Shown piece by piece: positions 21,480 to 39,219 of a DNA stretch of 64,000 nt. Positions within the stretch are counted from its first letter, which is position 1, and every line of letters starts with the position of its first letter. The position numbers were made by a program, and so were the translations under genes. This DNA is from Salinigranum salinum. GTDB lineage: Archaea > Halobacteriota > Halobacteria > Halobacteriales > Haloferacaceae. The notes under the pieces are model-generated. The model did no database searches. It was not told the DNA's origin and was given only the letters and a program-made list of their open reading frames with translations. Location of the stretch: the NCBI RefSeq assembly GCF_009176545.1, contig NZ_VTOJ01000001.1:1736001-1800000 (forward strand), written 5' to 3'.

Positions 21480-22301
21480 TCACGCCCCGGCGACCGTGCG
21501 GATCTCCGCGGCCGTCGCCAGGAGTTCGTCGTGGATCTCGCCGTTCGACGCGACGAGTCCCTCGGAGTCGTGTCGCCAGGGGTCGCCGTGGACGTCCGTG
21601 ACCGTGCCCCCGGCGAGTCGAACGAGGTGGACGCCGGCGACCGTGTCCCACGGGTTCGCGTAGACGTTCGTGACCAGGCCGTCGACCGTCCCCGCCGCGA
21701 GCATCGCCAGCTGTGCCTGTGCACTGCCGAGCCGCCGGAGGTCGCCGAATCGTTCGACGATCGCCCGGCAAGCGGCGGCGTACTCGTCCCGTCTGTCGCG
21801 CCCCCACCACATCGTCGGCACGACGGAGCACTCCTCGGGGTCACCCCGATCGCTGACCGAGATGGGGTCGCCGTTTCTCGTGACGGAGTCGTCGCCAGCC
21901 ACGTAGACGTCGCCGAGTTCGGGAGCGGCGATGGCGGCGGCGATCGGGTCGCCGTCGCGGACGGCGGCGACGGCGGTACACCACACCTGGAGCCCGCGGA
22001 CGAAGTTGTTCGTCCCGTCGATCGGGTCGATGACCCACGCAGGACCTTCGTCGGGTACCGACTTGAGTTCGTCCGCCTCCTCGCCGACGATGGCGTTCGC
22101 CTCGTACGTCGAGTGGATACAGTCGATGACCCGCGCCTGCGCGTCCCGGTCGGCCTGCGTCACCACGTCGGTCTTCTCGTCCTTCGTCTCGACGGGGATA
22201 CCCCGCCTGAACGAGCCCGCGGCGACCGCAGCGCCGACGCGAGCGGCCTGCTCCGCGACGTGTGCACGTGCCACCGCGTCGGACTCCGAGCTGGTGTCCA
22301 T
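21480..22301 (-). CDS. Inositol-1-monophosphatase/fructose-1,6-bisphosphatase family protein
   Basis: The 273-residue protein carries the three signatures of the Li+-sensitive phosphatase superfamily: IVGEEADE (about 70), WVIDPIDGTNNF (about 90) and NPWDTVAG (about 210), which bind two or three Mg2+ ions. Archaeal members dephosphorylate inositol phosphate and often fructose-1,6-bisphosphate, so the substrate is open. The downstream Lrp gene follows within 7 bases. It diverges from the small acidic gene at 22370. Confidence 0.93.
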   Translation of the reverse strand: MDTSSESDAVARAHVAEQAARVGAAVAAGSFRRGIPVETKDEKTDVVTQADRDAQARVIDCIHSTYEANAIVGEEADELKSVPDEGPAWVIDPIDGTNNFVRGLQVWCTAVAAVRDGDPIAAAIAAPELGDVYVAGDDSVTRNGDPISVSDRGDPEECSVVPTMWWGRDRRDEYAAACRAIVERFGDLRRLGSAQAQLAMLAAGTVDGLVTNVYANPWDTVAGVHLVRLAGGTVTDVHGDPWRHDSEGLVASNGEIHDELLATAAEIRTVAGA

Positions 22302-22369
22302 ACCGGGTCCCCTCGCGCCACCCCCCTATAGGCGTCGGGTTTTTGTCCCACGGACGAGAGGTCGAGGCC

Positions 22370-22768
22370 GTGTCCGGAGACGGTGACGACGACGCGTGCG
22401 ACGACACTGAGGCCAGAGACGAGACCGACGGCGACGCCAGAGACGAGACCGGCGCCGGAGCCGGTGCTGGAGCCGGTGCCGGGAACGACGACCGGATCGG
22501 TACCGACGCCGACCTCCCGGCCGACGTCGAGGCGACGCTCACGCAGTTGCTCGCAGAGGCGGCCGCCGCCGCCCGGACCCGCGATGTCGAGGAGGTCGAA
22601 GCCATCGTCGAGACGGTCCGGACCGTCGTCCGGAACAAGATTCCACAGGAGGCGCTCCGTGACCGGCTGCTCCACGGCTGTCGGGCCGTCGACCGACTCG
22701 TCGTGGACGAGCCGCTCGTCGCGGCGGAGTATCTGGAGGCGATGGAGCGACTCGTCTCGTCGTCGTGA
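22370..22768 (+). CDS. Small acidic protein with a conserved helical C-terminus
   Basis: I chose the GTG at 22370 because the frame further upstream is proline- and arginine-rich and overlaps the divergent IMPase-like start. The 132-residue product begins with a very acidic, Gly/Ala-containing segment (DDTEARDETDGDARDETG...GAGAGAGAG). It ends with a conserved-looking helical domain (DVEEVEAIVETVRTVVRNKIPQEALRDRLLHGCRAVDRLVVDEPLVAAEYLEAME). I recall related haloarchaeal hypothetical proteins with this C-terminal domain but no function. Confidence 0.75.
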   Translation: MSGDGDDDACDDTEARDETDGDARDETGAGAGAGAGAGNDDRIGTDADLPADVEATLTQLLAEAAAAARTRDVEEVEAIVETVRTVVRNKIPQEALRDRLLHGCRAVDRLVVDEPLVAAEYLEAMERLVSSS

Positions 22769-22854
22769 GCGTGGTGTCCGGCGGCGGAGCCACGACACGC
22801 CCGGGAACAGCGCACAGACGGCAGCCGCTCCTCGTCGGTCTTCGAGCGTAAGAA

Positions 22855-23753
22855 AGCGAGAAACCGCAATTTGGACCCGGTCGGGAGACGTTTTCCCCAG
22901 CCCGTACGGCCCGTTCGACTTGCCCCGGATTCCGGATATCCGGGTACGTCGACTTCCCGAACGCCGCTTTCGCGTCGTCCGGTAGTTGGCCTTCGCGCCG
23001 CCCGGTCGAACGTGGTCGGCCCGGTTCGGTTGGTGTTTTCCCCGGGCCTCACGACCTTTCTCGACCCCGGAGGGTCGACTTCGCGGGACCCGCTCTCGCG
23101 TGACCCCGGTACTCGGTCTTCCACCGTTCTGCGATCGGATTCGGCCCGGTTCGGTTGGTGTTTTCCCCGGGCCTCACGACCTTTCTCGGCTCCGGAGAGC
23201 CGATTTCACGTCCCCCGCTCTCGCGTGGGCCGCTACTTGGTCTTTCGCCGTTCCGTGAGCGGTTTCGGAGCGCTTCGGTCTGCGTGTTGTCCACGCTCCT
23301 TACGGCCATTTCGGCTGCCGCCGACTTCGCGGATCCCGCTCCCGCGTGACCCGCTACTTGGCCTTGTCCCGCTGTCGGAACGGGGCCGGATCGGTTCGGT
23401 TGGTGTTTTCCCCGATCCTCTCGGCCAGTTCGACTGCCGTCGAGTTCGCGGGCCCCGCTCTCGCGTGACCCGCTACTTGGCCTTGCCGCCGTTCGCTGAA
23501 CGGATTCGGACCGGTTGTGGGTTCCCCAGTCCTTACGGCCATTTCGGCTGCCGCCGAGTTCGCTCGGCCCGCTTTCGCGTTCCTCGCTACTTGGCCTTCG
23601 CACCGTTCGTGGGACGGTTGTGGGCTGCTTCGGTTCTCCGTCGGCGCGTTGACCTCGATTCCCTGTTACGGGACGCTCGGTGGTTGCACCGACGCCGTAT
23701 CCGTCTGTTCGACGGTTCCGGTCGTCCGGTTTGCCCTTGCCGCTTCTCGCGGA
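22855..23753 (-). ncRNA. Candidate tandem-repeat structured RNA (undescribed as far as I know)
   Basis: A strong minus-strand promoter at 23774-23789 predicts a transcript starting near 23753 that runs leftward through six imperfect repeats and meets a T-rich stretch on its own strand at about 22850-22865 (TTTCTCGCTTTCTTACGC). Each repeat holds a hairpin with constant loop and covarying stem, and a second hairpin. Unit lengths of 126, 125, 121, 119 and 114 bases shift the reading frame from unit to unit, which argues against a protein. G-U pairs in units 1 and 6 exist only in the minus-strand RNA. Ends are estimates. Role unknown. Confidence 0.55.
22870..23600 (-). repeat. Array of six imperfect 114-126-bp tandem repeats
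   Basis: The anchor resembling GCGTGACCCGCTACTTGGCC begins at 22972, 23098, 23223, 23344, 23463 and 23577. To the left of each anchor lie hairpin P1 (22873-22903, 23018-23048, 23143-23173, 23267-23299, 23388-23418, 23508-23532) and hairpin P2 (about 22924-22944, 23061-23078, 23186-23203, 23303-23320, 23422-23439, 23536-23553). P1 stems in plus orientation: GGCCCGG/CCGGGCC in units 2 and 3, GGAGCG/CGCTCC in unit 4, GGATCGG/CCGATCC in unit 5, GGACCGG/CCAGTCC in unit 6. Units 2, 3 and 5 share the 17-nt loop TTCGGTTGGTGTTTTCC. Confidence 0.85.
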
Positions 23754-23773
23754 CCTACAGGTATGGTACCGAA

Positions 23774-23789
23774 CCACATAAACATTTCG
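23774..23789 (-). promoter_or_regulatory. BRE/TATA promoter reading into the repeat array
   Basis: On the minus strand CGAAATGTTTATGTGG combines a purine-rich BRE (CGAAA) with a TTTATG-type TATA box at the right distance. It is among the clearest promoter matches in the window and points leftward; no protein gene follows it for about a kilobase. Confidence 0.6.
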
Positions 23790-24176
23790 TACGAGAAACA
23801 TCTTGCCGTGACCGGCTGGACGGGGCCGTGGACGACTGGCTGGAGCCGACTGTGAGCCAGCCGTGCATCGCGACAGTATGCGGACGGTGTCGGTGAGCGA
23901 GACGTCCGTCGGCTCCGGAACGACCGCGCGAACGGATCCAGTCGAGGAACCCGCGGTCGGAAACGGGAGTCGTCGTCGACGGCGGGGACGCTGATCTCGG
24001 TCGCGTCGGCCACGGCGAGAGCGCCGTCTCGGGTCACACGAGCGAGGTCGTCCGCCGCGGCCCGCGACACGACCCGGAGCGACGCGATGGGATCACCGAC
24101 GTGACCGGAGTGGCGTCCCGAGGGGTCACACCGATCCGACCGCTCGCTCGGGCTCGCGGTCGCGCGTCGTCAGACG
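23790..24176. other. Spacer between the two RNA arrays
   Basis: About 390 bases without a convincing gene. A minus-strand frame of about 130 codons crosses it, but it runs through the promoter into the repeats and is Arg/Ser-rich, as expected for a shadow. I see no repeat unit here. Confidence 0.4.
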
Positions 24177-24250
24177 GTGTGAACGGAGGGACTCGAACCG
24201 CGGTCGGTTCGTCCATCCGCGTCGCCCACTCCCTGATTCGAATCCTTCCG
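24177..24250 (-). repeat. Third (most diverged) copy of the tRNA-Leu 3' end with mirrored T-arm
   Basis: On the minus strand GGTTCGAGTCCCTCC (24185-24199) resembles the T-arm and acceptor half of the neighbouring tRNA-Leu. GGACTCGAA (plus 24189-24197) faces TTCGAATCC (24237-24245), so the T-arm copy can pair with a mirrored partner. Relative to the first copy a U-A pair has become C-G, and one further change gives a U-G wobble only in the minus-strand RNA. Confidence 0.6.
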
Positions 24251-24290
24251 TAGGCGTCGCTCTGTTCGTGGTCGCTCGTCGCCAGGAGGT

Positions 24291-24370
24291 GCGAGGGGAG
24301 GGATTTGAACCGGAGCCAGACGTGCTCGCTCGTCCCTGGCTGCGCGCGACTGGCAGGGATCAAATCGCTC
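24291..24370 (-). repeat. Second copy of the tRNA-Leu 3' end
   Basis: 24291-24310 repeats the last 20 bases of the tRNA-Leu gene exactly (as seen on the plus strand, starting GCGAGGGGAGGG). GATTTGA at 24302-24308 can pair with TCAAATC at 24360-24366, again mirroring the T-arm. Confidence 0.7.
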
Positions 24371-24409
24371 AGTCGATTCGGAGCCGACGCTGTCGCGTCG
24401 GCACCTCAT

Positions 24410-24485
24410 GCGAGGGGAGGGATTTGAACCACCGGAACGTCGCTTCGCTCGTTCCATAATTCAAATCCTCCGTACGGACCGCTCT
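24410..24485 (-). repeat. First copy of the tRNA-Leu 3' end, just downstream of the tRNA
   Basis: 24410-24429 is identical to the last 20 bases of the tRNA-Leu gene. GGATTTGAA (24420-24428) can pair with TTCAAATCC (24460-24468). Inside that stem sits a second hairpin, GGAACG (24434-24439) with CGTTCC (24450-24455), whose minus-strand loop reads AGCGAAGCGA. Confidence 0.75.
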
Positions 24486-24509: not shown

Positions 24510-24593
24510 TGCGAGGGGAGGGATTTGAACCCACGGACTCCTTCGAGAGCGGATCTTGAGTCCGCCGCCTTTTCCAGACTCGGCCACCCTCGC
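24510..24593 (-). tRNA. tRNA-Leu (anticodon CAA)
   Basis: A class-II tRNA with a long variable arm. Read on the minus strand, the acceptor stem is GCGAGGG/CCCTCGC, followed by the D-arm (GCC...GGC), an anticodon stem GCGGA/TCCGC enclosing CTCAAGA (anticodon CAA, Leu), a variable arm CTC-GAAG-GAG and a T-arm with loop TTCAAAT. 24510 supplies the discriminator A; CCA is not encoded. The T-stem (GTGGG against CCCTC) has one U-U mismatch, and the mismatched 3' half is exactly the sequence repeated three times downstream. Confidence 0.9.
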
Positions 24594-39109: not shown

Positions 39110-39135
39110 CTCTGCCAGCGGCTTCGACTCGTCCC

Positions 39136-39219
39136 GACTTGATTGTTGTCTCGGCCGACTTGATTGTTGTCTCGGCCGACTTGATTGTTGTCTCGGCCGA
39201 CTCGATCGTCGTCTCGGGC
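39136..39219 (-). repeat. 21-bp minisatellite upstream of dsbB
   Basis: Three identical 21-bp units (39136-39156, 39157-39177, 39178-39198) starting GACTTGATTGTTG, then a fourth diverged unit to 39219. The unit is in frame with dsbB and would encode Q-S-S-R-P-R-Q if translation began upstream, but it lies before the likely start codon. Confidence 0.85.

Follow-up and report, generated by a model that had tools for sequence, protein, structure and literature searches.

A structured archaeal RNA family missing from Rfam and its association with HARP

The locus studied here, on the minus strand of the window (the whole stretch of Salinigranum salinum DNA that was analysed, 64,000 nucleotides), is best explained as a free-standing member of an archaeal family of structured RNAs, absent from Rfam 15, that works with HARP as its client or ligand; we give this reading a probability of about 0.6. 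What was computed here is the RNA family with its conserved fold and its distribution, together with the co-occurrence with HARP in haloarchaea and, in several lineages, the proximity of the RNA to HARP genes; we infer that HARP has in this RNA a dedicated client or ligand. The key biological clue, the HARP linkage, lies outside the window and was beyond the reach of the original prediction, which was made from the window.

The array and the RNA around it

The window contains an array at 22950-23608 (TRF, score 467) of six imperfect units (repeat family D2), and their start-to-start spacing of 126, 125, 121, 119 and 114 bears out the 114-126-bp units first described. Similarity between units is 68-86% over 90-114 nt, and each unit is paired internally. 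Folding of the minus strand gave a z of -5.86, with 0 of 20 shuffles as good, against -1.94 and 1 of 20 for the plus strand; it is the minus strand that carries the structure at this locus. The six units are also found in the congeneric genomes G001-G003 at 92-93% identity, and G000-G003, the four genomes of the genus, each give six module matches; a whole RNA domain has here been amplified to equal copy number in every one of them.

When the locus was compared by BLAST with 60 genomes, 17 matched, its own included; the match in G027 is read as chance, as are the places L017, L024, L025 and L029. Outside the genus the matches mainly flank the repeats, covering the 5' domain and the 3' end, and in other genera the loci, read directly, hold the RNA free of the array, with 269-535 nt between the chosen limits. 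The window RNA therefore corresponds to a compact RNA with an amplified central module. The array is the amplified middle of an RNA of about 0.9 kb, with 5' and 3' domains that correspond to a compact RNA of about 270-540 nt in other haloarchaea, and the six units are an elaboration, seen in the window's genus, of a single-module RNA. The structure and covariation originally proposed for a noncoding array hold, but the repeat unit is not the whole feature, being flanked by the 5' and 3' domains; likewise, the interpretation as RNA stands in that this is probably a promoter-driven ncRNA, but it omitted P0-P5 and the long-range closing helix (Table 1).

It had also been claimed that the unit lengths break any reading frame, which is not true to the letter, as ORFs of 341 aa (plus strand) and 250 aa (minus strand) run through the array. 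By tblastn against three congeners, the 341-aa ORF lies mostly in one frame in L002 and in pieces in L003 and L004, and the 250-aa ORF mostly in one frame in L003 and in pieces in L002 and L004. Neither keeps a single frame in all three congeners, and a coding repeat is rejected on this ground; the conserved translated frame that the original prediction named as contrary evidence was thus not found among them.

Table 1. Features of the RNA locus in the window, in window coordinates
Feature	Position	Strand	Basis
BRE/TATA-like promoter box, CGAAATGTTTATG on minus strand	23777-23789	-	located in sequence
Whole RNA, about 0.9 kb	22850-23769	-	conserved limits in relatives; both ends inferred
P0, 5' leader hairpin immediately 5' of P1	23730-23760	-	read from sequence
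P1 5' strand CCGGACG, 7-bp closing helix	23723-23729	-	pairing counted in 93 members
P1 3' strand CGACCGG, 6/7 pairs in window copy	22877-22883	-	
P2 region, variable	23689-23722	-	read from sequence
P3-P4 domain, highly conserved 5' part, loop GUAACA	23643-23690	-	
P5a 5' strand GGAGA	23635-23639	-	
P5a 3' strand UCUCC, abuts P1 3' strand: 5+7-bp stack	22884-22888	-	
P5b 5' strand CAGCCC, pairing spans whole array	23622-23627	-	
P5b 3' strand GGGCUG	22898-22903	-	
Module 1: P6 hairpin and P7/P8/P9 three-way junction	23537-23618	-	
Link hairpin 1, GGACUGG/CCGGUCC	23508-23532	-	
Module 2 three-way junction	23423-23484	-	
Link hairpin 2; loop copies P5 internal loop (GGAAAAC..ACCGAA)	23388-23418	-	
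Module 3 three-way junction	23304-23365	-	
Link hairpin 3, GGAGCG/CGCUCC	23267-23299	-	
Module 4 three-way junction	23178-23244	-	
Link hairpin 4, GGCCCGG/CCGGGCC	23143-23173	-	
Module 5 three-way junction	23053-23120	-	
Link hairpin 5, GGCCCGG/CCGGGCC	23018-23048	-	
Module 6: canonical P7/P8/P9 domain, the family's CGGA..UUCG P8	22908-22993	-	
3' tail, GUCCAA.. then T-rich	22850-22877	-	

From 5' to 3' the order is promoter-like box, P0, P1, P2, P3-P4, P5a, P5b, P6, P7/P8/P9, the 3' strands of P5b, P5a and P1, and the tail. The 5' end was set near a conserved CATAC-like start and the 3' end at the T-rich tail; a leftward BRE/TATA promoter and a T-rich run had both been predicted, and a BRE/TATA-like box and a T-rich tail were located. 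A conserved internal loop lies between P5a and P5b, and both strands of P5b are changed in the congener G003, a compensatory change over more than 700 nt. All five link hairpins of the array repeat a P5b-like stem, and the stems named at the outset change in step from one hairpin to the next and stay paired. The loop GGAAAACACCAACCGAA, a copy of the P5 internal loop, is exact in three of the five (those at 23388, 23143 and 23018, which agrees with the 17-nt loop reported as identical in three units), and the other two hold variants. The CGGA/UUCG pattern of P8 has one match in the window locus, in the last module only. At the loci L006, L014, L015 and L016, the inserts in P9 are large and change fast, and they contain repeats of a GGTGNNAGNCC-like element which by eye remind us of T-loop modules.

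Conservation of the fold

Alignment A1 comprises 13 of 14 single-module sequences, G037 being excluded for its long P6. In this sequence-only alignment, 88.8% of the cells are paired, against 72.7% in shuffles, and both sides change in 20 of the 29 core pairs. A structure-fitted alignment of 75 members has double changes in 25 of 29 pairs. Alignment A3, of 47 sequence-only rows, derives from 100 family rows, of which 67 have a short-enough P9 and a clear 3' end and 49 remain once near-duplicates are removed; in it P4, P5a, P5b, P7 and P8 have double changes in 24 of 28 pairs and are 94.3% paired, against 31-46% for slid versions of the same helices. The observed covariation values were reached by 0 of 500 shuffles in each of the three counts (13, 75 and 47 rows).

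P1 is exactly 7 bp, with a sharp stop on both sides, and covaries over hundreds of bases. Counted in the 93 of 100 rows in which both strands could be located, some of them close relatives, and with a locating profile that includes P1 letters and so favours consensus strands, 78 members pair at 7/7 positions and 15 at 6/7. Each of the seven positions pairs in 86-93 of the 93 members, the outer neighbour in one and the inner neighbour in 14. Of 94 distinct members, 43 have a BRE/TATA-type box upstream, as against 0 of 188 background stretches, the pattern itself having been picked by eye among loci that are partly the same; the RNA is probably promoter-driven.

Distribution of the family

Two covariance models were used, R1 built from 13 relatives and the broader R2 built from 75. 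They match the same 93 of 342 genomes of the order, in 38 of its 90 genera and mostly as a single copy, so the covariance-model scan of haloarchaea suggested in the original prediction was successful. The window copy was found by R1 (E 1.0e-23) and R2 (E 1.7e-23), with P1, P5a and P5b located, and its locus has what defines the family: the covarying P3-P4 and P8 core, P1, P5a/P5b and the P7-P9 junction. An exact pattern run against GTDB r220 contigs gave 56 matches, 55 in Halobacteria and one, in Salinibacterium, taken as chance; the pattern has no exact match in viral contigs, and a viral origin is rejected. The RNA is present in all 15 genomes of the genus of G030. Among 196 genomes of the phylum, R2 matches eight, five inside the order and three outside (E 6.7e-10, 5.0e-7 and 1.3e-4), and in the latter P1, P3, P4, P5b and P7-P8 are readable by eye. 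This is a large, old class of archaeal RNA, missing from Rfam.

Some individual loci deserve mention. G025 has two complete tandem copies of the RNA (L010:1510-1797 and 1954-2240), each with its own promoter-like box. Both f26 genomes outside the order (L191 and L192) have, downstream of the RNA, an ORF read as potassium-channel/TrkA-like. For L220, the gene content suggests a methanogen.

Association with HARP

Clustering of the neighbouring genes picked out an ORF that adjoins the RNA at many loci. Its protein matches TIGR03875, "RNA ligase partner protein", with 236.5 bits (cut-off 95.3), has a PIN_5 match, and finds its closest solved structures among PDB entries for "RNA-free ribonuclease P"; TIGR03875 serves as a HARP marker (PMC6380272). 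Judged by these sequence matches and its similarity to solved HARP, the RNA-adjacent protein is HARP, a protein-only RNase P.

HARP scores over the cut-off in 138 of the 342 genomes and the Rnl3 ligase (TIGR01209) in 100. HARP occurs in 88 of the 93 RNA-positive genomes as against 50 of the 249 RNA-negative ones, an odds ratio of 70 with the 342 genomes treated as independent. RNA, HARP and ligase are found together in 50 genomes, RNA and HARP in 38, RNA alone in five, HARP and ligase in 50, and none of the three in 199, every other class being empty (genus labels and the genome lists of this joint table were entered by hand). It follows that the Rnl3 ligase never occurs without HARP (100/100). 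All 38 HARP-positive genomes without the ligase have the RNA, and HARP with neither RNA nor ligase is found in 0 of 138. In the genomes checked the RNA is nearly always accompanied by HARP, and these figures, 88 of 93 and 38 of 38 ligase-less haloarchaea, make it a concrete candidate client.

The 50 HARP-positive genomes with no detectable RNA all carry the ligase; laxer filters recovered no RNA in the seven HARP-positive, RNA-negative genomes of genus g46. Three of the five RNA-positive genomes without HARP over the cut-off are 63-89% complete, and the other two, G069 and G256, are 99% complete. Outside the 342-genome set, HARP was found in all 19 RNA-positive genomes, three of them from outside the order, and in none of seven RNA-negative ones, which all belong to g46 and of which three are 58-80% complete. 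Within g46, HARP is present in 13 of 13 RNA-positive and 7 of 19 RNA-negative genomes (p 0.0004), where its absence in G159, G187, G200, G236 and G314 means that they are missing from the list of HARP matches. At the genus level, HARP is present in 36 of 38 RNA-positive genera, and 17 genera have HARP but no RNA. Beyond haloarchaea the link was tested from RNA to HARP only, in the three RNA-positive genomes outside the order, where haloarchaeal queries found no HARP or ligase beside the RNA. Among the controls, both methanogens (M. jannaschii and M. acetivorans) are positive for HARP and for the ligase; Haloferax volcanii, the genetic model, matches HARP and not the ligase, and is therefore predicted to have the RNA.

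Of 154 RNA loci, 33 have HARP nearby, always on the opposite strand, 27 times upstream (head-to-head) and six times downstream (tail-to-tail); these are counts of loci, some being one genome under two names, with flanks of about 1.5 to 8 kb. The ligase is also present in two of them: in G110 it separates HARP from the RNA, and in G047 it lies past HARP. In the genome of the window itself, HARP is about 635 kb from the RNA and 2.5 kb from the ligase. Two HARP genes over the cut-off occur in each of G021 (C14 and C10) and G037 (C8 and C28); since the G021 gene at C10:7009-7596 adjoins the RNA, an RNA-linked subtype of HARP may exist. One RNA-HARP pair (L184, G144:C2:380900-384100) is on a contig of 427,347 bp, equal in length to the Halorussus caseinilyticus plasmid NZ_CP119810.1, which was itself matched in a search, and so such a pair can lie on a plasmid.

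The same protein pair, with the same nesting of ligase always with HARP, is the HARP-Rnl3 system of Seshadri and Gopalan (2025, PMC12153264). The hypothesis published there is maturation of C/D-box RNA, and its accessible text does not describe an RNA of the present kind. It asks about genomes with HARP or ligase alone, and here it is the ligase-less HARP-positive haloarchaea that all have the RNA. According to the same account (PMC12153264), H. volcanii and M. mazei showed no growth phenotype when HARP was knocked out. HARP-carrying archaea also have a normal RNA-based RNase P, and the function of archaeal HARP is called unknown in the available portions of two papers (PMC10941002, PMC12153264).

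Comparison with known RNAs

No Rfam 15 family reaches its gathering score in the locus, where a weaker scan gave sub-threshold matches only, in line with the first impression of an unfamiliar RNA; the Rfam matches in the window are two tRNAs, both outside the locus. Archaeal RNase P RNA is likewise large, structured and archaeal, and a link to tRNA-like ends would be common to it and HARP, but it is rejected, as RF00373 has no match at the locus and is a separate gene in the same genome (G000:C1:515321-515736), whereas the new RNA is patchy in haloarchaea and has no Rfam match. A tRNA or tmRNA is rejected because ARAGORN finds three tRNAs in the window and none in 22850-23790, and a CRISPR or simple tandem repeat because of the divergence and internal pairing of the units and their constant number of six in four genomes. 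A K-turn reading of P3/P4 was dropped by eye, the tandem G.A being there but the 3-nt bulge absent. The size of about 270-900 nt and the absent Rfam match speak against a C/D-box sRNA.

Bacterial RNA-repair operons keep a structured Y RNA with the ring-shaped RNA-binding protein Ro60 and an RNA ligase. The likeness lies in this combination of structured RNA, ring-shaped protein and RNA ligase, whereas the RNA fold, the proteins and the ligase class are different. OLE, ROOL and GOLLD of bacteria are likewise large, ornate, free-standing RNAs; the present family differs in being archaeal and without an Rfam match, and in having an array of modules in one molecule where the accessible accounts report homo-oligomers.

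The literature covered, to which subscription papers and supplements do not belong, holds no description of this RNA, and the accessible text of PMC12153264, PMC6380272 and PMC10941002 mentions no associated RNA of such a kind. Surveys of haloarchaea, in their available parts, list intergenic RNAs that are conserved but have no assigned function (PMC7002113); single copies may therefore have been recorded before as anonymous sRNAs. H. volcanii sRNAs in print include HVO_2213s, HVO_1727s2 and HVO_2834s (PMC3956466, accessible text), and the single-copy ncRNAs named in the available text of genome papers are RNase P and 7S.

Possible roles of the RNA

HARP cuts pre-tRNAs, reading the end of the acceptor/T-stem stack. 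As the 3' strand of P1 directly follows the 5-bp P5a, the two form a 12-bp stack like that of acceptor plus T stem. With P1 (7 bp) stacked gap-free on P5a (5 bp), the RNA would mimic the tRNA acceptor/T-stem geometry, and HARP would bind there. The P0 hairpin would occupy the position of a 5' leader relative to the stack, and HARP at the P1/P5a end could either cut P0 back or remain there. A second docking surface may be provided by the P5b-P9 module together with the P5 internal loop, and since the module is amplified to six in the window's genus, one RNA would offer six docking modules. In our analysis, that HARP binds and perhaps trims the RNA appears to be the most economical reading. Against it, unrelated RNAs may also have a 7+5-bp stack, genomes from one clade are not independent, and co-occurrence with HARP is no proof of contact. 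A stronger version, which we consider rather improbable, makes haloarchaeal HARP a ribonucleoprotein with this RNA, docked via the 7+5-bp end and the P5b-P9 module, with six modules matching six dimers; the haloarchaeal "protein-only" RNase P would then not be RNA-free. Bacterial HARP is a dodecamer of six dimers, and because the numbers match, a single RNA could dress the whole HARP ring; the number is suggestive, no more.

Among the alternatives, the one that survives best, though we think it unlikely, makes the RNA an antidote or decoy: as a mimic of the pre-tRNA end it would stop the PIN-family nuclease HARP from cutting tRNAs, and Rnl3 would repair the cuts. If the RNA shields and the ligase repairs, HARP should never be kept without at least one of them, as is the case in all 138 HARP-positive genomes. 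PIN families contain many toxins, the head-to-head arrangement is frequent (27 of the 33 adjacent loci), and a HARP-ligase toxin-antitoxin idea is already in print (PMC12153264, accessible text). But five RNA-positive genomes are without HARP, a decoy would need neither six modules nor so deeply conserved a P3-P4, and T. kodakarensis grew without defect after knockout of the ligase, according to the available text of PMC12153264.

The co-occurrence could also arise without contact, if RNA and HARP served the same stress or niche and were kept or lost together, an explanation that we regard as improbable. Both are patchy within haloarchaea, and with HARP in 36 of 38 RNA-positive genera shared ancestry inflates the counts. 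Correlated retention is at odds, however, with the adjacency in two orientations and several families, with the HARP-ligase-RNA clusters in G047 and G110, with the contrast within g46, and with the presence of HARP in all three RNA-positive genomes outside the order.

It is very unlikely that the RNA is an independent trans-acting one (6S-like, ribosome-associated or otherwise regulatory) whose HARP neighbours are fortuitous. The flanking genes do differ between families, and in Haloferax and the window's genus they are DUF309 and IMPase, not HARP, but the odds ratio over the 342 genomes and the clean separation by HARP of 26 further genomes of known RNA status argue against independence. Further non-HARP neighbours are presumably Lrp and YcaO; all four point to vertical inheritance (Haloferax and the window's genus) and not to function. 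That the locus is no functional RNA at all, but a decayed or coding repeat or some DNA element, is hardly conceivable: two long ORFs overlap the array, but the compensatory changes over more than 700 nt in G003, the family-wide covariation, the lack of a frame kept in all three congeners and the conserved promoter-like box go against it.

Neighbouring elements

A small ORF with no Pfam match (window 22262-22768, plus strand) lies between the RNA and the gene for inositol monophosphatase, and Haloferax marinum (L108) has a 94-aa ORF at the corresponding place. The window also holds, at 24165-24430, three partial tRNA-Leu 3' ends of the GAGGGAGGGATTTGAACC type (repeat family D4) beside a complete tRNA-Leu(CAA) at 24510-24593; the partial copies look like attachment-site remnants. 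Some genomes have tRNA genes close to the RNA, namely tRNA-Leu in the window, tRNA-Ser in L193 and, by eye, a tRNA-like stretch in L014. Finally, a 21-bp unit, CCGACTTGATTGTTGTCTCGG, is present at window 39134-39217 in four tandem copies that are 95% alike.
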